Shown here piece after piece: positions 2,382 to 15,394 of a DNA stretch of 39,905 nt. Source of the DNA: a virus. The position numbers were made by a program, and so were the translations under genes. Location of the stretch: IMG/VR virus record IMGVR_UViG_3300046516_000635, positions 1-39,905 of that record. One strand, written 5' to 3'. Below the pieces are notes generated by a model, which made no database searches, was not told the origin of the DNA, and was given only the letters and a program-made list of their open reading frames with translations. Position 1 is the stretch's first letter. Each line of letters starts with the position of its first letter.

Positions 2382-3461
2382 TCAGACAGCCATAACCACC
2401 TTATTCGGAGACACAATACCGCGCCAGCGGGATTTTACATACCGTTCAGTAGTTGTCACAGAGTCATGTCCGCAGAGGATTTGTATCTGCTCAAGCGGGA
2501 CGCCAGAAAGCCACATGTCGGTTGCGCCCTTTCCCTTCATGTCGTAGTAGCCCCAGCTGCGCATCGTGGCCAGCGGCCCATTATTTTCCAAATGTTCCTT
2601 GCGCACGTTGACCTGGCGCCGCTTCAGCATCGCGCACAGCCCATCGTAGGAATATGCTTTGAAGTCGCGGCGATGAATCAGTGTCATGCCGACCACTTTG
2701 TCCGACTTTATCTTGGCCAGTATTGTGTCAATCTCAGGCGTGATCTCAATGTCAACGGCCGCGCCTGTCTTACCTTGTTTTGTACGAATGATCCTGGTTG
2801 CACGACCGTCTGCGTCGCGCCGCTCGATCAGGTTACGCTGCGTCCATCCGATGATATCTTCAGGGCGCTGCAGGGTACGGTAGACGAGCTCGGCCAGTGC
2901 TTGCACCTGGACCGGGGCATGGGCCAGTGTTGCTCGCATCTCATCATGCTCGACATAGCGGTCCCGTTTCGTTTCCTTGTTGCGCCGCACGCCGATGCAC
3001 GCATTCGTTTTGATGCCGCCTTGGCCGGTCCGAATGAGCCAGGTAAAACAGGCGGATAAGCAGGCCTTTTCTCGGTTGGCACGCACAGCACGACCAAGCT
3101 CGAGCCCGGTATCCAGATATTCCGCTACCTGGGGCGCTTCCACGCCGACTGGATACAGCTTCCCGAAGAACGCTTTCAAGGGGATGACGTCGCGCGTATA
3201 GTCATCCAGCGTGCGTTGTGCAAGATCATTCAGGGCAACGCGTTTCTTGCAGGCGGTTAGGAATTGATCAAGGTAATAGGCAACGGTGCCGAATTCATCC
3301 TGCTGGCCAAGGGTAATCTCGCCGGCGCGGCGCTTCGCCTTCTCGACGTCGTGGCCAAGATGCTCCCAAGTCCCCGCAGGGTGATGATAATAGAACGCAC
3401 CATGCTTGGCGTACACCCGGGAGGGGAGGTTAAGCGGGTTGTGCTTTCGGGGCCGAGCCAT
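2382..3461 (-). CDS. int: Tyrosine-recombinase integrase
   Basis: A 359-residue site-specific recombinase for integration at attB in tRNA-Asn. The start at 3461 (MARPRKHN) is preceded by AAGGAAAAC. The N-terminus has the arm/core-binding region seen in phage integrases (SRVYAKHGAFYYH). The catalytic domain shows box I Arg in YRTLQRPED, a Lys in KQGKTG, GHDSVTTTERY with the late His and the nucleophilic Tyr, and GATDM before it. The usual HxLR box appears as YDMK (about residues 295-305), so the second catalytic Arg and its His are not in standard form. It lies next to attP, and its start overlaps the DUF4224 gene by 32 bases. Confidence 0.93.
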   Translation of the reverse strand: MARPRKHNPLNLPSRVYAKHGAFYYHHPAGTWEHLGHDVEKAKRRAGEITLGQQDEFGTVAYYLDQFLTACKKRVALNDLAQRTLDDYTRDVIPLKAFFGKLYPVGVEAPQVAEYLDTGLELGRAVRANREKACLSACFTWLIRTGQGGIKTNACIGVRRNKETKRDRYVEHDEMRATLAHAPVQVQALAELVYRTLQRPEDIIGWTQRNLIERRDADGRATRIIRTKQGKTGAAVDIEITPEIDTILAKIKSDKVVGMTLIHRRDFKAYSYDGLCAMLKRRQVNVRKEHLENNGPLATMRSWGYYDMKGKGATDMWLSGVPLEQIQILCGHDSVTTTERYVKSRWRGIVSPNKVVMAV

Positions 3462-3714
3462 GTTTTCCTTTGAATAACTCCAATAATGCGCCACGATCGG
3501 TACTGCGGCCGCCGGTGGATATTGTTTTGTCCGCCTCTGCCGATGCCAAGCGGGTACCCGACAGCACTGCCTCAGCATGTGATCTTACTACGACAGGTCG
3601 GCCATTTGGCTTCGTGGTCACCTGCAGCTTGAGAGAGCGGAGGTAACGCACCTGCGCCGCGGGCTGGACGAGTGGTTTGCAGAGTTCCGCTATTTCGTTG
3701 TCAGTTAGAAACAT
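3430..3714 (-). CDS. DUF4224 domain protein (integrase partner, possible excisionase role)
   Basis: A 94-residue protein starting MFLTDNEIAELCKP at 3714, with GAGGTGCCCC upstream. The N-terminal 50 residues match the DUF4224 pattern (FLTD-x-E-I-x-E-L...Q-x-x-x-L, then a short beta stretch with GRPVVVR). DUF4224 proteins are usually encoded directly upstream of phage tyrosine integrases and are suspected to help directionality. The gene overlaps the integrase start and the end of the upstream ASCH-like gene. The excisionase role is inferred from position only. Confidence 0.8.
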   Translation of the reverse strand: MFLTDNEIAELCKPLVQPAAQVRYLRSLKLQVTTKPNGRPVVVRSHAEAVLSGTRLASAEADKTISTGGRSTDRGALLELFKGKHGSAPKAQPA

Positions 3715-4743: not shown

Positions 4744-5123
4744 GCTGTCGCTTTCTGACTGAGGTTGTTGATCCAGCGGTTTTTATTTTGGCATCGCATA
4801 GCGCGTTTGTGAGACTTAGGATCGAACTCCGGCGGAAGAACGCGCCACCGATCCATCTTGTTGCCTGGGTAGGTCGTGCCCTTTGGGCTTGGCCGCAGAT
4901 CATCATCGGCAAGGCACCAGCGCGACCCATCCCAATAGCATGGAGACATGAAGCTGTTGTACCCATCTGAGCATTTCCATTCATCAGGACCGTTGGTATA
5001 AAGTGTTTGCACCTCGTACCAATCTGGCATGATCGGCTCTCCATAGGCGCATACGTGCCATGGCCTCGATATCGGGGTAATGGGCGCATCTGGAGCATCA
5101 AATAGTGCTAGCTGAGTAGTCAT
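4740..5123 (-). CDS. Hypothetical phage protein
   Basis: A 127-residue protein beginning MTTQLALFDAPDAP and rich in Trp, Tyr and Cys (DWYEVQTLY, SPCYWDGSRWCLADDDL). The WDG-x-x-W core resembles small phage proteins encoded with nucleotide or DNA-modification genes, but I do not recognise a family with confidence. The ATG overlaps the methyltransferase stop (ATGA at 5123-5120), and the 3' end overlaps the next start in the same way. It is a firm member of the operon but has no assigned role. Confidence 0.7.
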   Translation of the reverse strand: MTTQLALFDAPDAPITPISRPWHVCAYGEPIMPDWYEVQTLYTNGPDEWKCSDGYNSFMSPCYWDGSRWCLADDDLRPSPKGTTYPGNKMDRWRVLPPEFDPKSHKRAMRCQNKNRWINNLSQKATA

Positions 5124-7015
5124 GCGACCCTCGCAATCTCGCGTTCATGGGCGAAGTTAGCTTCGATCAGCGCGCGGGCCAATGGTGGACATACAGAATT
5201 GCCACACATACGGACTTGTGCAGACTTGGTGAGCGTCAGGCCTTGCGCCGGGTCGTCGCCGATGATGTAGCTATCGGGGAACCCCTGTGCACGGTACAGT
5301 TCGCGTGGCGCTAGCATGCGCAGGCCGATGTCGACAATCTGGTAGTCCTGGCCGTGGATTGTGACCAGGCCGAAGCGGTCGCGACTGGTGATTGTAGCTA
5401 GAGGCCCGTCGATCTTCGGATCCTGATCGGTGCCGTAGTAGCTCAGCAGGAATGCGCGCACCTCGGCATGGTGCATGCCGCCGGCGCTGACCGTCCCTAG
5501 TGGCTCGTCTGTGCCGGCCGCCGTACTGGTGCCGCGCAGCTTGACAAGATTGCTGGTGACGATGCCCATGGCATTGCCGGTGCCTGGTCGGGCTTGCTTG
5601 CCGCCGGCGGTAACCGTATGGAGCGGCTCATCGAGAGCGCTGCCGACGGCGCCGCTCCTGAACTTGGTAACATGGGCGGACACCATGCTGAAATGGCCGC
5701 CTTTGACTTGGGCGCAGATGGTGCGCAATGGCTCATCTGCTGGCATCACACGTTGGCCAGTAGCGTTTGCATGTTCAGTCAGGAATGCAGTTACCAAGCT
5801 ATGGTGATCACAAGCCGTCACTGTGCCGAGTGGATCTTCCAGATCGGAGCCAACGACGCCGGTATAGTGTTTTGCAAGGAAGGCGGTAGCCAGCGCCTTT
5901 TCACCGCGGTTGGCGCCAGTGACTGTGCGGAATGGTTCGCCAATCGATTCGATGCGATCGCCTCCCTGATGAGTGACTGGTACGATCATCGGCGAGACCA
6001 CAGCCCTGTGATTCTCGGTAGTCAGTGTGCCAAACGGCTGATTGACGGATACTGGCTTGCCGGAATAGATTGGTCCGCCCTGGCCGATGATGAACGGATC
6101 GGCCGCATCGACTACATAGCGCATGATGCCTTTGGCAATCCGGCGAAGCGTGGCAGGTGCCAGCGGTCGCTTCCGCTCGAAAATCGACGGGCAGGGAATC
6201 GACCAGTCAATACACTCCGCAGCCGTACGATACGGCTTCAGTTTGCCAGCGCGCACGCCGATACTGTCGGGCGCGCCATTTGTCGCCACGGGCCAGCGAA
6301 TCATGATCCCATCGCGCCGCCCGATCATGAAGAAGCGTTTGCGAATCGTCGGCGTGTCATAGTCGTTCGCGCGAAGTTCCTGGCATTCAAAGTCATACTT
6401 TAAGCCGTTCATCGCCTCTTCAAATTCGCACTCGCTGAAAGCCAGAGGCCCTGTGCAGAGCACTTCGCGGATCTCGTCGATGATGTCGCTGTTACGTTGG
6501 TCGACTGGGATCCCGGTACCCACTATCTGCTTGAATACCAGGAACGTTTCGCCCTTACGCGCTGGGTCTGGCCATGACATGCCGTCGAGCGCCGCGAGAA
6601 GGGGCCCCCAGGTGCGAAATTCTTCGACGTTCTCAATCACGAACACGCGAGGTTTTGTTCGCACCAACCAACGGATTGCTACCCATGCCAGGCCGCGAAT
6701 GTTCTTCTCTACAGGCTTGCCACCTTTGGCCTTGCTGAAGTGCTTGCAGTCGGGCGACAGCCAGACGAGGCCGACAGGCTGGTTGTTGGTCACCTTGATC
6801 GGGTCTACATCCCATACGCTCTCACACAAGTGCTTTGTGAAAGGGTGGTTCGCTGCATGCATTGCCAGCGCTTCAGGGTCGTGGTTTATTGCGATATCAA
6901 CAGGGCGCCCGAAAGCCTGTTCCAATCCCTCCGAAGTCCCGCCACCACCAGCGAAGTTATCGATGATCAGCTCGTTGCCGAGGTCCAGACCCAAAGTGAA
7001 CAAGTCGCGCTTCAT
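5120..7015 (-). CDS. DNA (cytosine-5) methyltransferase
   Basis: A 631-residue C5 methylase that probably protects phage DNA from host restriction. Motif I is FAGGGGTSEGL (about 21-31). Motif IV has the catalytic Cys90 in SPDCKHFS. Motif VI is ENVEEF (128-133). Motif VIII is RKRFFMIGRRD (225-235). Motif X is GNSVCPPLARALI near 605-617. Between VIII and X the target-recognition region (about 325-555) consists of seven divergent repeats of about 35 residues with the core PL-x-TVTA. The PDC form of motif IV is usual for this phage subfamily. It overlaps the reverse transcriptase stop by four bases. Confidence 0.93.
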   Translation of the reverse strand: MKRDLFTLGLDLGNELIIDNFAGGGGTSEGLEQAFGRPVDIAINHDPEALAMHAANHPFTKHLCESVWDVDPIKVTNNQPVGLVWLSPDCKHFSKAKGGKPVEKNIRGLAWVAIRWLVRTKPRVFVIENVEEFRTWGPLLAALDGMSWPDPARKGETFLVFKQIVGTGIPVDQRNSDIIDEIREVLCTGPLAFSECEFEEAMNGLKYDFECQELRANDYDTPTIRKRFFMIGRRDGIMIRWPVATNGAPDSIGVRAGKLKPYRTAAECIDWSIPCPSIFERKRPLAPATLRRIAKGIMRYVVDAADPFIIGQGGPIYSGKPVSVNQPFGTLTTENHRAVVSPMIVPVTHQGGDRIESIGEPFRTVTGANRGEKALATAFLAKHYTGVVGSDLEDPLGTVTACDHHSLVTAFLTEHANATGQRVMPADEPLRTICAQVKGGHFSMVSAHVTKFRSGAVGSALDEPLHTVTAGGKQARPGTGNAMGIVTSNLVKLRGTSTAAGTDEPLGTVSAGGMHHAEVRAFLLSYYGTDQDPKIDGPLATITSRDRFGLVTIHGQDYQIVDIGLRMLAPRELYRAQGFPDSYIIGDDPAQGLTLTKSAQVRMCGNSVCPPLARALIEANFAHEREIARVA

Positions 7016-8160
7016 GCAGATTTCCTATAGGTTTTGGTGAACTGAGTATTGACCGTATGCCCGCGCCGTAACACAGCCTGGGCGAGCTTGGCCCGGTCTC
7101 TGTGACTGGATCCAGCTTGGCGTAACAGACCGAAATAGCTGTTCGCGGACGTGAATACGTCGCTAGCATCCATGTTGCTGATCCGGTTGATAGCCTGGCG
7201 CACCGTGCGCGGCCGCGTTCTGCTGAACCATGGCTTGATGACTTGGCCAACGAAATCGACGCCACGATCTACCGGCTGCAGGATTGTCTTGGTTGGATTC
7301 AGGTTGGCATGCAACACGTCCGGCAGAAATGTGCTGATGTCGGCCAGCGCTGCATTGAGCCACTGTGGCGATTCATGCAGCAGGATGAAGTCATCGACAT
7401 AGCGAATGTAATGCCGGGCGCGTACCTGGTGCTTGACGTGCTGATCGAGCGCATCAAGGTAAATGTTGGCAAAAAATTGCGATGATAAGTTACCGATCGG
7501 CAGCCCTAAATGTGCTGGCTGATTGCCTAGTCGCTTGTGTGGTGGCACCAGATCGATCAGGGCAGACGCGCCGCGCAGCTGGTAGTTCTGGCGTGGATCG
7601 TGAAACAGGATCGTTTCAGCCAGTCGCATCCACCATGGTTCCGTCACCCGGGCGGCGATCTGTTTGTGCAACACGTTTTTATCGATGCTGACGAAAAAAT
7701 TGGCGAGATCGCATTTCAGGTACCAGACAGGCTTCGCCCAGTTCTCGGTGGCGCTGCGGATCTTCGCTTCCAGGCGCTGGGCCGCGTACATGGTGCCGCG
7801 TCCCGGAATACAGGCGCAGGTGTCTTTGATGAATGAGGCATAGAACCGTGGGGAAATGCGGTTATACAGCAGGTGGTGCACCACGCGGTCACGGAAGTCG
7901 GCCGCCCAGACTTCCCGCGGCTTCGGGCGTGTGACGACGAAGCAAATGGACTGCCCAGGCTTGTATGAGCCGTCGACCAGCTCAGCGTAGAGCCGGGTCA
8001 GATTGCGTTCCAGATCCTGCTCAAATATGAGTGCGTTAGGGGTATTGCGCTTGCTCTGACGACAGTCAAAGTACGCTTGCACCAATTCTGCAAAAGAAAA
8101 GTCAGCATGACTCTCGGTAGTACCGTTCTGATCTGCGGACTGCACGGGCTCTGTACTCAT
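7012..8160 (-). CDS. DGR reverse transcriptase
   Basis: A reverse transcriptase of about 382 residues that copies the template-repeat RNA, with errors at adenines, into cDNA used to replace the variable repeats. Visible motifs are KCDLANFF with the first catalytic Asp (about 151), GLPIGNLSSQFFANIYL (219-235), whose IGxxxSQ block is typical of DGR enzymes, and RYVDD (253-257) with the two remaining Asp. The start is uncertain. ATG 8160 lies inside the template repeat and has no clear ribosome site. A TTG or GTG near 8100 is possible. The frame is open further upstream but runs through the template repeat. The product overlaps the methyltransferase start (ATGA). Confidence 0.93.
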   Translation of the reverse strand: MSTEPVQSADQNGTTESHADFSFAELVQAYFDCRQSKRNTPNALIFEQDLERNLTRLYAELVDGSYKPGQSICFVVTRPKPREVWAADFRDRVVHHLLYNRISPRFYASFIKDTCACIPGRGTMYAAQRLEAKIRSATENWAKPVWYLKCDLANFFVSIDKNVLHKQIAARVTEPWWMRLAETILFHDPRQNYQLRGASALIDLVPPHKRLGNQPAHLGLPIGNLSSQFFANIYLDALDQHVKHQVRARHYIRYVDDFILLHESPQWLNAALADISTFLPDVLHANLNPTKTILQPVDRGVDFVGQVIKPWFSRTRPRTVRQAINRISNMDASDVFTSANSYFGLLRQAGSSHRDRAKLAQAVLRRGHTVNTQFTKTYRKSA

Positions 8161-8237
8161 TCGACTTGTGGTTGTTGTTCTGGTTGCCATTGCTGAAGTT
8201 CTGCATCCATGCATAGTCGGGGTTGGCGGCGTTCTGC
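8132..8237 (-). repeat. DGR template repeat (TR)
   Basis: This 106-bp copy lies between the Avd-like gene and the reverse transcriptase and matches the 3' ends of three upstream genes. On the minus strand it is dense in AAC/AAT codons if read in the frame of the variable repeats (Asn at about nine positions). The block 8132-8159 is identical in all copies. From 8160 to 8237 the variable repeats differ from it 16, 15 and 10 times, always where the template has adenine on the coding strand. No hairpin like those beyond the variable repeats follows it. Confidence 0.95.
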
Positions 8238-8381
8238 GGTTGTTCATGCTATCTACGTCGCTCTGCCGAAGGCGTGAGCCGATCAGCAAAGAAACTGCGC
8301 CAGACCTGCCGGCGTGTCCCGGTGGTATCTGTGATGCGCATAGCGGTGGGCGGTGATTAGCCACCCAGCGGCATGACCAGA

Positions 8382-8780
8382 TTAGAAAATTTCGCTCTGA
8401 CATGACTGCCTTGGCGGTGATGTAACGGGCGCTGGTACTACTGCGGACTTGGTACGCCATCCATTGGCCTGCCTACCGATCACATCCGTCAGACTGATGG
8501 CGGTCGCATATTGGCCGATCGAGATGAATCGCATGTCTTGCGACAGGCGAAGCAGAATCTCGGCGGCGTGGATATGCTCCAGCAACGTCGTCAAGTGTGG
8601 GACCTTGTCCTGCGCCGCATTTGCTCGCGCGATCAGGATCACGCTTTGGACGCACAAGCTGCGAATCTCACCACCAATCGATGCCTTGAAATCCTTTGGC
8701 ATATTTTTGGTGATGGTCGTCATCAGCTTGAGAAGCCCATAGGCCGCTTTATAAATCGGTAATTGGTGATGGATAGCCAT
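8382..8780 (-). CDS. avd: DGR accessory variability determinant (Avd-like four-helix protein)
   Basis: A 132-residue, mostly helical, basic protein (LPIYKAAYGLLKLMTTITKN, NMPKDF, IRSLCVQSVILIARANAA, HIHAAEILLRLSQDM). The pattern matches the bAvd / four-helix-bundle family related to the 23S rRNA intervening-sequence protein. In Bordetella phage BPP-1 Avd forms a pentamer, binds the reverse transcriptase and the RNA and is needed for retrohoming. Its place between the last target gene and the template repeat is canonical. No strong ribosome site precedes the ATG. About 145 bases separate its stop from the TR and may carry the 5' part of the TR RNA. Confidence 0.9.
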   Translation of the reverse strand: MAIHHQLPIYKAAYGLLKLMTTITKNMPKDFKASIGGEIRSLCVQSVILIARANAAQDKVPHLTTLLEHIHAAEILLRLSQDMRFISIGQYATAISLTDVIGRQANGWRTKSAVVPAPVTSPPRQSCQSEIF

Positions 8781-8797
8781 GCTGAAAAAAATCGATC

Positions 8798-8810
8798 CGG
8801 GCTACGCCCG
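8798..8810 (-). other. Hairpin 38 nt after VR1
   Basis: Stem CGGGC/GCCCG with a three-base loop, followed on the minus strand by ATCGATTTTTTT. The same element with the same spacing follows the other two variable repeats. It could be a retrohoming hairpin/cruciform like the one downstream of the BPP-1 variable repeat, a weak terminator, or both. Confidence 0.7.
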
Positions 8811-8830
8811 TGAGTTGTTAAATTACTGAA

Positions 8831-9208
8831 TTATTCAATGATTAATAATCTGCGGACTGCACGGGCTCTGTACTCATACGACTTGCGGAGGTCGTACTGG
8901 CCGCCATAGCCGAAGTCCTGCACCCATGCATAGCCGGGGCCGGCGGCGTCCTGCTCACCCGACCAATACCAGGCCGCATCAAACTGGTGCTTGAGGTTGG
9001 CGAAGAGAAGAGACTGCTCATTGCGTGTCGGCAGCTCGCCGCCGATGGTGCTGGCCCATTGTTTGGCCTTGCTCCAATTCAAGCCGCTACCTGGTACTGC
9101 ACTCAGCAAAATCAGGTGATGGTCGGGCTGGCCGTCCTTGCCAAGAATGATGCCGGCGTATTGCTCGCCATCCTTGAGGTTTTCTTTGATCCACTGTGCT
9201 TTGCTCAT
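8831..9208 (-). CDS. DGR target protein 1 (DUF1566-like, C-terminal variable region)
   Basis: A 125-residue protein with the DUF1566/Lcl-type pattern: YAGIILGKDGQPDHHLILL, then W-x-x-A, GGELPTRNEQSLLFANL, WYWSGEQ and a C-terminal EYRARAVRR. The last 35 codons before RLLIIE are the variable repeat VR1. The fold is probably C-type-lectin-like, so the diversified residues would form a binding surface. No signal peptide or membrane segment is visible. The start has AAGGATCACC upstream. It is the shortest and most proximal of three tandem targets and lies 50 bases before the Avd-like gene. Confidence 0.9.
   Translation of the reverse strand: MSKAQWIKENLKDGEQYAGIILGKDGQPDHHLILLSAVPGSGLNWSKAKQWASTIGGELPTRNEQSLLFANLKHQFDAAWYWSGEQDAAGPGYAWVQDFGYGGQYDLRKSYEYRARAVRRLLIIE
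8849..8954 (-). repeat. DGR variable repeat VR1
   Basis: A 106-bp copy of the template with 16 substitutions, all at template adenines (coding strand), and no indels. The first 28 bases (8849-8876) are identical to the template and act as the likely IMH end. Residues changed relative to the template-encoded peptide include N to D, G, Y and L, H to R, and M to V. Confidence 0.95.
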
Positions 9209-9231
9209 GGTGATCCTTAAAAAAATTCGAT

Positions 9232-9246
9232 CCGGGCTGCGCCCGG
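9232..9246 (-). other. Hairpin 38 nt after VR2
   Basis: Perfect six-bp stem CCGGGC/GCCCGG with a three-base loop, then ATCGAATTTTTTT on the minus strand. It is the same element at the same distance as after VR1 and VR3. Confidence 0.7.
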
Positions 9247-9266
9247 CAGGTCGTTAAATTACTGAA

Positions 9267-9785
9267 TTACTCAATGATTAAGATTCTGCGGACTGCACGG
9301 GCTCTGTACTCACCCGACTTGCGGTCGTCGCCCTGGTAGCCAAAGCTGAAGTCCTGCACCCACGCATAGTCGGGGTCGGCGGCGTGCTGCGTTGATGTCC
9401 AATACCAGCCGTCGGTATCGAAACTATCTGGCGAGTTGATATAGAGCAGGCGTACTTCACGCCGATCCGGCAGGGACCAGTCAATGAATCCCTCGATCCG
9501 GGCAGATGCCTTATCAGTAGCCTGGCGCCAGTTCACGCTGGTCAGTTCATGTTCATCGGTAGCATGGATCAGGTGATAATCGGGGGCGCCGTCTTGGCCG
9601 CGTACGATGCCGGCGTACACGCCGCCTTCGCCAACCCAAATTGTGCCGAGGCGCGGTGGGGTGGCAGGGGATTGTTGCAGCACACTGGGTGGAAGCCCTG
9701 CTTTGTCCAGCCAGTGGCTAATCAGATTGGCGGCTGGGATCGATACCTTGGCGCCATGAAGTTCAAATTCGACTACGTTGGACAT
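9267..9785 (-). CDS. DGR target protein 2 (DUF1566-like, C-terminal variable region)
   Basis: A 172-residue protein. The N-terminal part (MSNVVEFELHGAKVSIPAAN) differs from target 1. The middle keeps YAGIVRGQDGAPDYHLI and IDWSLPDRREVRLLY, followed by WYWTSTQ and the variable repeat, ending RILIIE. A good ribosome site (TGGAGGTAATTC) precedes ATG 9785. The WSLPDRREV block is the DUF1566 equivalent of the WRLPT motif. No export signal is seen. It shares the conserved 3' cassette (VR plus hairpin) with its two neighbours, but its 5' half is unrelated in detail, which suggests shuffling of heads on a common tail. Confidence 0.9.
   Translation of the reverse strand: MSNVVEFELHGAKVSIPAANLISHWLDKAGLPPSVLQQSPATPPRLGTIWVGEGGVYAGIVRGQDGAPDYHLIHATDEHELTSVNWRQATDKASARIEGFIDWSLPDRREVRLLYINSPDSFDTDGWYWTSTQHAADPDYAWVQDFSFGYQGDDRKSGEYRARAVRRILIIE
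9285..9390 (-). repeat. DGR variable repeat VR2
   Basis: A 106-bp copy of the template with 15 substitutions, all at template adenines of the coding strand, and no indels. Pairs of adjacent adenines are changed together at several AAC codons (for example to GGC, GAC or TTT-type codons). Confidence 0.95.
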
Positions 9786-9811
9786 GAATTACCTCCAAAA
9801 ATCAAAACGAT

Positions 9812-9826
9812 CCGGGCTGCGCCCGG
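9812..9826 (-). other. Hairpin 38 nt after VR3
   Basis: Perfect six-bp stem CCGGGC/GCCCGG with a three-base loop, then ATCGTTTTGATTTTT on the minus strand and the ribosome site of target 2. Third copy of the element. Confidence 0.7.
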
Positions 9827-9846
9827 CAGATGGTTAAATTACTGAA

Positions 9847-10458
9847 TTACTCAATGACTAATAATCTGCGGACTGCACGGGCTCTGTACTCACTCGACTT
9901 GTGGTGGTTGTACTGGCCGCCATTGCTGAAGTACTGCACCCATGCATAGGCGGGGTAGGCGGCGTCCTGCGTTGAAGACCAGTACCATTCAGGATCGAAT
10001 GCCTCCGCGCCTCCGGCTTGGAATGCATCAGCCTGCGTTTGCGCAGGGAATTCCGGTGTGTAGGGATAGCCCGGCTCGAACGACGAGAGATTGATGCCGG
10101 AGCGGGCGTAGCAATAGTTTTTTCGCGTGGTCGGCTTCATGGTGCGATAGGCGATTTCCAACTGATCCTGCGCCGGCAGGTGCCAATCATCGAAGCCACC
10201 GATCCGTAACGAGCGTGCTGCAATCGCCAGTTTGCTGCCAGCGGCAACCATGGCTTCGGTGTTGGACAGACCGTCACTGTAGCTGCGGGCGTCATCTACT
10301 GCCTTCAGTGACTTGTTCCAGGCGCCGGTGAGCTCGCCTTCCTTGCCGGCGACTATGCTGGCGTACAGCTTGCCATCGATGCGGAGCAGGCCGCCGAAAT
10401 AGCCGCCTGCCAGCGCGGCGCAAAGGGCTGGCAGTTCTTGGATGTGGATCTGGTGCAT
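9847..10458 (-). CDS. DGR target protein 3 (full-length DUF1566 protein, C-terminal variable region)
   Basis: A 203-residue protein and the most complete of the three targets. The start at 10458 (MHQIHIQELPALCAAL) follows AAGGAGTCTAC. An in-frame ATG nine codons upstream lacks this site. The DUF1566 core is clear: GGFDDWHLPAQDQLEIAYR (about residues 97-115), FDPEWYWSSTQ (about 154-164), then the variable repeat and RLLVIE. DUF1566 domains adopt a formylglycine-generating/C-lectin-type fold, which DGRs often diversify. No signal peptide is seen. It is first in the direction of transcription, and its VR is closest to the template (10 changes), so it was perhaps the most recently or least often rewritten. 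Confidence 0.9.
   Translation of the reverse strand: MHQIHIQELPALCAALAGGYFGGLLRIDGKLYASIVAGKEGELTGAWNKSLKAVDDARSYSDGLSNTEAMVAAGSKLAIAARSLRIGGFDDWHLPAQDQLEIAYRTMKPTTRKNYCYARSGINLSSFEPGYPYTPEFPAQTQADAFQAGGAEAFDPEWYWSSTQDAAYPAYAWVQYFSNGGQYNHHKSSEYRARAVRRLLVIE
9865..9970 (-). repeat. DGR variable repeat VR3
   Basis: A 106-bp copy of the template with ten substitutions, all at template adenines of the coding strand, and no indels. The 28-base end 9865-9892 is identical to the template. Confidence 0.95.
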
Positions 10459-10481
10459 GTAGACTCCTTGGGTTGTGGCGC

Positions 10482-10886
10482 TCATGCGCCGATAGACATG
10501 CAGAACGCGGACACGTCTGCAACGGATTGCTTAAATTTGTTCACCGCCACGGTGCCGATCTGGCTGTCGATACCGCCGGCGGCCTGGCGCAGGATTGCAG
10601 CTTCGGATTCAGCGACGCCGACCTTACCGACCCGGTCAAAGCGATCGCAGATGGAAAGCATGGCGTCGCTGGCTTGATCGATACATGCATGCATGGCGCC
10701 AGCGCGGCGCAACGAGGCCAGCATCATCGACAGTTGGTTGTATGTCTCCGGCGACGGCACGGCGATCAGCGCCTCGGTAGCCAGGTGCAATTCCAGAGCC
10801 AAGCTGTTACGCGTCTCGGCCATCATCGGAATACGAACCGAGCGAGGCTTGTATGCCTTGTTGCGCTTGGTCTTACGGATGGCCAT
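10482..10886 (-). CDS. Hypothetical early phage protein
   Basis: A 134-residue protein starting at ATG 10886 (MAIRKTKRNKAYKPRSVRIP), with AGGTGCGCC upstream. The N-terminus is very basic. The rest is predicted helical (LALELHLATEALIAV, YNQLSMMLASLRRAG) without membrane segments. Proteins of this type recur in Burkholderia-like phages near DUF3310, but no function is known. Its start overlaps the DUF3310 gene end. It lies 23 bases upstream of target 3 and may share its mRNA. Confidence 0.75.
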   Translation of the reverse strand: MAIRKTKRNKAYKPRSVRIPMMAETRNSLALELHLATEALIAVPSPETYNQLSMMLASLRRAGAMHACIDQASDAMLSICDRFDRVGKVGVAESEAAILRQAAGGIDSQIGTVAVNKFKQSVADVSAFCMSIGA

Positions 10887-14688: not shown

Positions 14689-15348
14689 TTATGTCATATG
14701 TTTTATTTTACGGGCAGGGACTGGATGGGCTACGTAATACATCCAAATGATAGTTTCCGGTGGTGCGGAGATGATTTCCAAGGTGTTGTAGCTGCCTAGA
14801 CGAGTTGCTCCGCGTTGGGATAGGAGGCGCTTAATAACGACCCGCCCATCCCCGAGTTTTACCAGCACATCATCTTCTAACTCTGGAGCAGTGTTTGGCT
14901 CTACCAGTGCATATTCCCCTGGATTGAAGCGCGGAGACATAGAATCCCCCTCTACTGGGACTATGAAGGCGTTGGGGTCCTGGGATGATATTTCCGCATA
15001 TTCATCAGAATAGCCGGTAGGAAGGCTAGCATCATCCCACTCGCGACCAGCGAAGCCGCCCATCGACTTGCCAAGCACAGGTATTTCTTTGAATTTGTTG
15101 TGGCTGATCTCTATCGCGCCAGCAGGTAGGTCTTGGAAGTCAGTAGATCTCGAACCCAAGAGAAAGTCCGTTGAAAGCTGTAGTACCGACGCTAGCTGAG
15201 ATGCTCTCGCTACCGGTGCGCCTCGGCTTTTCCAGTTAGTGAGAACATTTTTCTCAATACCCATATTGTCCTCGAACCAACTCCTGTCTTTTTTCAAGGC
15301 ATCTAGTCGAGCTTGGATTACGTTCCAAGGAATAGTCTTTTTGTTCAT
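14689..15348 (-). CDS. CI-type repressor with S24 self-cleavage domain
   Basis: A 219-residue lysogeny repressor. It has an N-terminal helix-turn-helix (about 8-60: IEKNVLTNWKSRGAPVARAS), a linker with an Ala-Gly cleavage site (FAGREWD, A100-G101) and a LexA/CI-type peptidase with Ser136 in EGDSMSP and Lys173 in VIKRLL. It is therefore probably inactivated through RecA during the SOS response. It is divergent from the cro-like gene across the operator region. The start is uncertain: ATG 15348 has no ribosome site and may be nearly leaderless, and ATG 15369 (seven codons longer) has a weak GGA. Confidence 0.92.
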   Translation of the reverse strand: MNKKTIPWNVIQARLDALKKDRSWFEDNMGIEKNVLTNWKSRGAPVARASQLASVLQLSTDFLLGSRSTDFQDLPAGAIEISHNKFKEIPVLGKSMGGFAGREWDDASLPTGYSDEYAEISSQDPNAFIVPVEGDSMSPRFNPGEYALVEPNTAPELEDDVLVKLGDGRVVIKRLLSQRGATRLGSYNTLEIISAPPETIIWMYYVAHPVPARKIKHMT

Positions 15349-15394
15349 GGACGAAGCGTAAATCAGCATACACATTCCGTGTTACACAAATTGT

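Follow-up and report, generated by a model that had tools for sequence, protein, structure and literature searches.

A phage diversity-generating retroelement with three targets, a structured RNA 5' of its template repeat and a reverse transcriptase frame that runs unbroken into the template

Organization of the cassette

The window, a viral sequence of 39,905 nucleotides (IMG/VR record IMGVR_UViG_3300046516_000635), carries what is with certainty a diversity-generating retroelement (DGR) of a temperate siphophage, consisting of a reverse transcriptase (RT), the accessory protein Avd, one template repeat (TR) and three C-type-lectin (Lcl_C) targets. The span of 8132–9970 given by the first-pass annotation proved too small, and the cassette extends on the minus strand from about 7012 (RT) to 10485 (third target gene).

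The RT (7012–8160, minus strand, counted from an ATG at 8160 inside the TR) belongs to the RVT_1 family and shows in its translation the motifs IGNLSSQ and YVDD, of the (I/V/L)GxxxSQ and YxDD types. It matches PHROG 1423 (6.7e-119) and its nearest solved relative is the RT of PDB 8ub7. A defence function was considered and rejected, the RT fitting the PADLOC RT models merely as a general RT. The avd gene (8382–8780, minus strand) matches bAvd (PF22296) and PHROG 3206 ('Avd protein of DGR'), with a further match to NCBIfam DivGenRetAVD that lies below the cut-off.

The three target proteins, all encoded on the minus strand, comprise 125 (8831–9208), 172 (9267–9785) and 212 residues (9847–10485). 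Lcl_C was recognized in each of them, below the Pfam cut-off in target 1, and the variable repeats sit at the 3' ends of all three genes. The AF2 model of target 2 (pLDDT 91.6) has as its best PDB match the C-terminal domain of Legionella Lcl (8q4e), followed by C-type lectins.

Template and variable repeats

The TR (8132–8237) is 106 nt long; its translation is QNAANPDYAWMQNFSNGNQNNNHKSNEYRARAVRR in the frame of the targets and ...MATRTTTTSRMSTEPVQSAD in that of the RT. It is matched on the same minus strand by VR1 (8849–8954), VR2 (9285–9390) and VR3 (9865–9970). A base-by-base recount reproduced the 16, 15 and 10 differing sites reported earlier, and all 41 of the 41 changes fall on a printed T, that is, on an adenine of the template in the minus coding strand, with none at template C, G or T and no indels between the TR and the three VRs. 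The substitutions are A>G (27), A>T (10) and A>C (4). With 36 A among the 106 nt of the TR, the probability of all differences landing on A is 2e-9 for VR1, 9e-9 for VR2 and 8e-6 for VR3. The changes had been placed in about 13 codons, mostly Asn; the count is 14, and the predominance of Asn holds (9/14). Across the three VRs 20 distinct TR adenines are hit. The last 27 nt of the TR contain 7 adenines, none of which is altered in any VR, and this unaltered segment is an IMH-like 3' end. Likeness between TR and VRs breaks off sharply beyond the 106 nt, and no copies besides these four turned up when all 39,905 bases of the record were searched.

The three targets are homologous (40–51% amino acid identity) and have common 3' flanks, as would be expected if the repeats were simply the paralogous 3' ends of genes that had been duplicated and then set apart by point mutations or by gene conversion. 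Such an origin has a negligible probability and is refuted by the base spectrum; moreover, the gene bodies are far more diverged than the repeats and show no likeness to the TR outside the repeat in direct comparison, and genes for an RT and Avd adjoin. The A-only signature itself is that of a textbook DGR, and the adenine-specific mutagenesis proposed from the letters alone is backed by the RT, the Avd and the lectin-fold targets.

The earlier description of the element as of the active type, with independent rewriting events, finds indirect support in the different patterns of the three VRs and in the A-only change of an ortholog and of sister phages. The cassette of an orthologous prophage has its own A-only patterns (35/35 relative to its own TR), and two sister contigs that have the same TR, and whose target bodies show 100% identity across 200 nt, carry 14 differences in their VRs, 14/14 at TR adenines, although TR detection in the relatives demanded A-only mismatches, so that these tallies are not independent evidence. 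Among near-identical target genes of sister phages, VR variation is likewise confined to TR-adenine sites. These patterns show recent rewriting of VRs in the relatives and suggest, for the phage studied here, an element of the working type. An M-to-V change common to the three VRs of the window was rejected as a fixed feature, as it is not fixed in the ortholog. From established DGR biology, the RT and Avd would copy the TR RNA and misread adenines, and the resulting cDNA would replace the VRs; one template would diversify three small C-type-lectin-like proteins.

Each VR is followed, 37–38 nt downstream, by a small hairpin with a 3-nt GYA loop: a 5-bp stem and loop GTA after VR1 (8798–8810), and 6-bp stems with loop GCA after VR2 (9232–9246) and VR3 (9812–9826), all on the minus strand. 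The BPP-1-type element at this place is a GC-rich inverted repeat with a 7–10 bp stem and a 4-nt GRNA loop, 4–34 nt after the VR (PMC3240598). As a feature of the clade the hairpin was rejected, being strong in just 33 of its 166 VRs.

A structured RNA 5' of the TR and a helix to its 3' boundary

A full-length match to the RT-15 RNA (RF03018; 8237–8434, minus strand) scores 164.8 bits in the covariance model, against a gathering cut-off of 82, and ends at the first base of the TR. RT-15 abuts the 5' side of the TR not only in the window but also in the relatives scanned, with a single exception (L041) in which no RT-15 match was found.

A strand within RT-15, UCUAAUCUG (8378–8386, minus strand), is complementary to CAGAUCAGA (8127–8135, minus strand), which spans the 3' boundary of the TR. 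In the alignment 84.7% of the cells of this helix are paired, compared with 74.1 (sd 1.0) in shuffled controls, six of the nine pairs are changed on both sides, and slides reach at most 42%. When each 72% identity cluster is represented by a single RT, the value is 67/88 as against 42.0 (sd 3.6). If the window is folded without constraints, the minimum-energy structure also contains the helix; as a whole this fold is no stabler than shuffles (z -0.39). On this comparative sequence evidence, a covarying long-range helix links RT-15 to the 3' boundary of the TR. The template RNA would then comprise, in order, the RT-15 RNA, the TR and a short spacer; RT-15 NNNNAUCUG would pair with the TR 3' boundary CAGAUNNNN and clamp the TR end, which by analogy with BPP-1 is where cDNA synthesis would start. 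No report of the helix was found in the literature searched, a search that was incomplete, and an earlier description is possible.

Two further structures were not retained. In the spacer and 5' end of the RT, 3' of the TR, RNAalifold did no better for a conserved structure than with shuffled columns (z -0.53). A possible second helix, in which the segment upstream of RT-15 would pair with the spacer (GUAGUACC/GGUACUAC in the window), scores above shuffles overall (16.56 vs 15.16, sd 0.31), but its position is inconsistent and it is suggestive at most.

Overlap of the TR with the RT frame

The RT frame is open upstream as far as 8472. The spacer between the TR end and the codon for A of AYFDC in the RT core (8077–8130, minus strand, 54 nt) is open in this frame, contains no in-frame ATG and includes a nucleotide-conserved motif, CATGCTGAYTTTTC. 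RT starts were surveyed in 90 non-redundant RTs with a TR, the window included and BPP-1 added as outgroup. In 81 of the 90 there is no ATG between TR and RT core and the RT frame continues unbroken into the TR; all 81 have an in-frame ATG within or 5' of the TR. Their spacers have ten different lengths (27–57 nt), the length having changed at least 22 times across the tree, and all keep the phase. Stops in the spacer are found in 0/79 loci in the RT frame and in 20 and 53 in the other frames, with pN/pS of 0.46 compared with 1.18 and 1.36, respectively; over the last 66 nt of the TR, stops are found in 0/79 loci in the RT frame and in 28/79 in the third frame. The phase is lost in a clade that has gained an ATG after the TR (L030, L032, L034, L036 and L037) and also in L040, and in L026/L027 other DNA parts the TR from an RT that has its own ATG.

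Since no ATG follows the TR, the frame is unbroken and the spacers are all in phase, the start of RT translation most likely lies within the TR or on its 5' side, the candidate starts being the ATG at 8160 or 8190 in the TR or one further 5'. The 3' part of the TR and the spacer would therefore also encode the RT N-terminus in a second frame, and one RNA stretch would be both template and RT message.

Two other starts were weighed. A GTG or TTG 3' of the TR, which would make the overlap of the frames incidental, is present in 36 of the 81 loci, window included (the TTG/GTG pair in ELVQ, 8080–8085), and brt of BPP-1 begins 144 nt past its TR. Such a start is nevertheless quite unlikely: 12 of the 81 loci are without any start-like (NTG/ATN) codon there and 33 have CTG/ATN only, strong selection at the protein level acts on the preceding residues DFSFxEL (pN/pS 0.28), and the phase, which could drift freely, is kept in 81/81.

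The other possibility, a start at the conserved ATG of CATGCTGAYTTTTC, one frame off, followed by a -1 shift into the RT frame, is very unlikely. About 52 of 79 loci have this ATG at -32 nt relative to the AYFDC codon, the position at which the sister RTs of L026/L027 begin in frame. His codons before G are CAT:CAC 47:2, and the ratio within the RT core is 151:265 (p 5e-17). Against it, 18 of the 79 loci are without such an ATG, a classic slippery heptamer is absent, and selection on the RT frame sets in at the GAT immediately after the ATG, which leaves no space for a slip. The motif is retained in L026/L027 although the RT has moved away, so that an RNA role fits it better, and the conserved phase of TR and RT would be left unexplained.

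As regards the favoured start, inspection by eye shows no conspicuous Shine-Dalgarno sequence before the TR ATGs, and selection for these codons, judged by AAT-before-G usage, was set aside as weak (odds ratio 2.2 vs 1.6 in the RT core control). A fusion of RT with Avd, or a frameshift from avd, was rejected, as the frames vary and in several loci a stop falls at the 5' edge of the TR or within it. The TR-proximal half of the spacer is under little protein-level selection (pN/pS 0.86, 0.70–1.06); much of its nucleotide conservation may stem from the helix.

Comparison with known systems

The window shares with BPP-1 (mtd-avd-TR-brt) the gene order target-avd-TR-RT, the adenine-only TR/VR differences, a lectin-fold target, the RT family and a TR 3' end complementary to a strand of structured RNA that is followed by a UGGUC-like motif. 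It differs in having three targets instead of one and in the place of the structured RNA: in BPP-1 this (Rfam Phage_DGR) lies 3' of the TR, 144 nt before brt, whereas in the window it is RT-15, 5' of the TR, and the TR is within the RT frame. No match to RF03022 was found in the window at E<=1, and the BPP-1-type layout, RF03022 RNA 3' of the TR and then a separate RT start, is absent from it.

The agreement with RF03018 covers its full length and its position. The Rfam model, which extends no further than the 5' end of the TR, gives the AAUCUG strand no pairing partner, whereas here this strand is predicted to pair with the TR 3' boundary. Overlap of TR and RT was recorded at the annotation level in 2012 as DiGReF group 3, a descriptive class whose spatial arrangement was deemed irrelevant to mechanism (PMC3521204); here, in contrast, frame conservation, missing alternative starts and covariation indicate selection. 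The same RT-15/TR/RT architecture is present in Burkholderia phage Magia, Pseudomonas phage Cruim01 and Shewanella phage QDWS, with 65–69% nucleotide identity in the RT region, and their annotated RT starts conflict (5' of the TR, inside the TR and inside the RT core).

The C-type-lectin fold of the targets and the action of the best studied phage DGR, BPP-1, are in line with tail proteins that, like Mtd, bind receptors and alter the host range. This role is possible if somewhat doubtful, because the targets are small, lie in a leftward operon between a CI-like repressor and the integrase, together with Avd, RT and a methylase, and are far from the rightward tail genes; the targets of Magia, Cruim01 and QDWS likewise lie outside a tail module. 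The proteins could equally well act early, in lysogeny or at a surface.

Implications

The locus is very probably a three-target phage DGR with a template RNA made of RT-15, TR and spacer, a helix that clamps the TR, and a TR whose 3' part encodes the RT N-terminus. The structured RNA 5' of the TR, the overlap of reading frames and the clamp helix go beyond the first-pass annotation, and the architecture is a variant within DGRs. The family comprises at least 585 RT relatives in IMG/VR, in (pro)phages of Janthinobacterium, Massilia, Comamonas, Burkholderia, Pseudomonas and Shewanella.

What is new in this family would be a dual-use mutagenesis template inside the RT frame, and a TR end clamped by a covarying helix to RNA on the side opposite to that in BPP-1. 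The architecture explains the inconsistent annotation of RT starts in these genomes, is relevant to making DGR mutagenesis tools from other phages and lends itself to point-mutation tests. It also raises the question of how cDNA is primed without the BPP-1 spacer. A tentative and rather unlikely answer is that RT-15 DGRs have a permuted template RNA, in which the 3' element of BPP-1 (the anti-TR strand and UGGUC, by the priming adenine) lies 5' of the TR. With this element upstream, priming would take place from the upstream RNA, the 3' side of the TR would be free to encode the RT N-terminus, and translation of the RT and use of the template would compete on one RNA as a built-in switch.

Organization of the DGR cassette

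The cassette occupies the minus strand in the order target 3 (9847-10485), target 2 (9267-9785), target 1 (8831-9208), avd (8382-8780; PF22296, PHROG 3206), the structured RNA RT-15 (8237-8434), the template repeat (TR, 8132-8237, placed by repeat comparison) and the reverse transcriptase gene (RT, to 7012; RVT_1, PHROG 1423). The RT carries the motifs IGNLSSQ and YVDD and its nearest solved structure is 8ub7. The targets match Lcl_C, target 1 below the Pfam cut-off, and the AF2 model of target 2 (pLDDT 91.6, built with 40 sequences) is closest to the C-terminal domain of Legionella Lcl (E 5e-7), with C-type lectins next. Each target gene is followed by a hairpin with a 3-nt GYA loop (8798-8810, 9232-9246 and 9812-9826); such hairpins are strong in just 33 of the 166 variable repeats (VRs) of the wider family.

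The source phage is a temperate siphovirus, with an integrase (2382-3578, minus strand), a CI-like repressor (14689-15375, minus strand), a CII-like gene (15898, plus strand) and terminase, portal, capsid and tail genes all on the plus strand. These positions place the cassette between repressor and integrase, outside the tail module. The three diversified lectin-like genes (8831-10485) belong to a leftward operon in this interval, apart from the tail genes. A large C5-cytosine DNA methyltransferase gene (5120-7015, minus strand, 631 aa) adjoins the RT gene, and a methylase is also found near the RT in the relatives Cruim01, QDWS and Haboob.

Adenine-directed variation and VR turnover

A script comparison of the TR with VR1 (8849-8954), VR2 (9285-9390) and VR3 (9865-9970) reproduced the 16, 15 and 10 differences of the first-pass annotation, all 41 at a printed T, that is, a template A on the coding (minus) strand, with no indels. 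Given 36 A among the 106 nt of the TR, differences confined to A have hypergeometric probabilities of 2e-9, 9e-9 and 8e-6, respectively. The spectrum is A>G 27, A>T 10 and A>C 4. The 20 altered adenines lie in 14 codons, against the roughly 13 first proposed, and 9 of these encode Asn. None of the seven adenines in the 3'-terminal 27 nt of the TR is changed in any copy, as expected for an IMH-like end. The full record of 39,905 bases contains these four repeat copies and no others. The identification as a DGR was right, and by membership the element is an ordinary one.

Related loci showed signs of turnover. The VR finder used on them extends across A mismatches only, so that bulk A-only tallies are biased by construction, whereas the contrast between gene body and VR is free of this bias. 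L127 and L128 share identical TRs and 200 nt of target-gene body at 100% identity, yet their VRs differ at 14 positions, all 14 at TR adenines. The corresponding counts are 15/15 and 16/16 for L012/L013 (97% body identity) and 12/12 and 13/13 for L059/L060. A bacterial genome carries an orthologous three-target cassette (L162; 84.6% across 3.9 kb) whose VRs show 35 differences from its own TR, 35/35 at A.

Start of RT translation relative to the template

No in-frame ATG exists between TR and RT core in the window. Of the 96 RTs compared, all below 95% identity and with BPP-1 as the outgroup, 90 possess a TR, and in 9 of these an ATG lies 3' of it. Among the remaining 81, the sequence after the TR offers GTG/TTG in 36, CTG/ATN only in 33 and no NTG/ATN in 12. 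All 81 have an in-frame ATG further upstream with no intervening stop, inside the TR in 69 and solely 5' of it in 12. The TR end is in phase with the RT core in 81/81 (checked by script in 79 and by eye in L041 and L091), at spacer lengths, from TR end to RT core, of 27, 33, 36, 39, 42, 45, 48, 51, 54 or 57 nt, which changed at least 22 times on a FastTree tree of mixed branch support.

In none of 79 loci does the RT frame of the spacer contain a stop, whereas the other frames do so in 20 and 53 loci; pN/pS is 0.46, compared with 1.18 and 1.36 in those frames. The 27 nt on the RT-core side are clearly coding (0.28); the half adjoining the TR evolves almost neutrally (0.86, 0.70-1.06), as an unconstrained linker would. 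Over the last 66 nt of the TR, stops occur in 0/79 loci in the RT frame and 28/79 in the third frame. L030, L032, L034, L036, L037 and L040 gained an ATG after the TR and lost phase; L056 and L059 gained one and nevertheless kept phase. In L026 (TR 4749-4861) and L027 (4836-4946) the TR still follows RT-15, roughly 1.1 kb of other, ORF-containing sequence lies between it and the RT, and the RT has its own ATG.

Taken together, the missing ATG, the phase, the selection on the spacer and the L026/L027 arrangement indicate that RT translation would start in the TR or 5' of it. The start codons are candidates only; the nearest in-frame ATG lies 60 nt (35 loci), 84 nt (21) or 30 nt (6, including the window) before the TR end. 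Published RT CDS starts disagree, lying 5' of the TR in Magia, inside it in Cruim01 and inside the RT core in QDWS. The overlap in itself had been noted before: group 3 of DiGReF (PMC3521204) lists DGRs in which the TR and an annotated RT ORF overlap.

The spacer also contains a motif, CATGCTGAYTTTTC (8096-8110), whose nucleotide sequence is conserved in many loci. For its His codon before G the CAT:CAC ratio is 47:2, compared with 151:265 across the RT core. The motif includes an ATG one frame off the RT, where sister RTs start, and L026/L027 retain a similar motif at a place that no longer encodes RT. An RNA role would fit these features best.

Long-range pairing between RT-15 and the TR boundary

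The RT-15 match in the window (164.8 bits) ends at the first TR base, and relatives have RT-15 at the equivalent position, with a weak match in L040 and none in L041. The Rfam model leaves the AAUCUG strand unpaired. In 87 loci this strand (NNNNAUCUG) shows complementarity to the 3' boundary of the TR (CAGAUNNNN), which lies 218-265 nt further downstream in the loci listed. Over 59 distinct strand combinations, 84.7% of cells are paired, a value that 0/500 shuffles reached (74.1, sd 1.0), and 56 cells are altered on both sides, where shuffles give 16.6 (sd 3.2). Sliding the strands by 1-3 nt gives 42% pairing at most. When a single RT is kept from each 72%-identity cluster (22 loci), 67/88 of the outer pairs, four per locus, still form, versus 42.0 (sd 3.6).

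In the window this clamp helix joins UCUAAUCUG (8378-8386) to CAGAUCAGA (8127-8135) with one mismatch, and the minimum-energy fold contains it unprompted; the whole window fold is no more stable than shuffles. A possible second long-range helix, GUAGUACC/GGUACUAC (about 8412-8420 with 8118-8125), flanks it; several relatives also have complementary segments, though at shifting positions.

Comparison with BPP-1

In BPP-1 the cDNA is primed by an internal spacer adenine (PMC12875486). There, the structured RNA RF03022 lies 3' of the TR, and 144 nt separate the TR from the start of brt. The TR 3' end segment AUCACCU (repeat as annotated) can pair with AGGUGGU at nt 48-54 of the spacer, after which come C and an A that corresponds to the priming adenine, A56. 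Following the anti-TR strand, BPP-1 has the motif UGGUCAGCC and the window has CUGGUCAUGCC. This likeness suggests that RT-15 may fulfil the role of the BPP-1 spacer from the opposite side of the TR; against this, the common motif is short and RF03022 does not match the window at E<=1.

As far as comparison of sequences tells, the cassette is a variant architecture common to a large phage family, and the two comparative findings are both directly testable.
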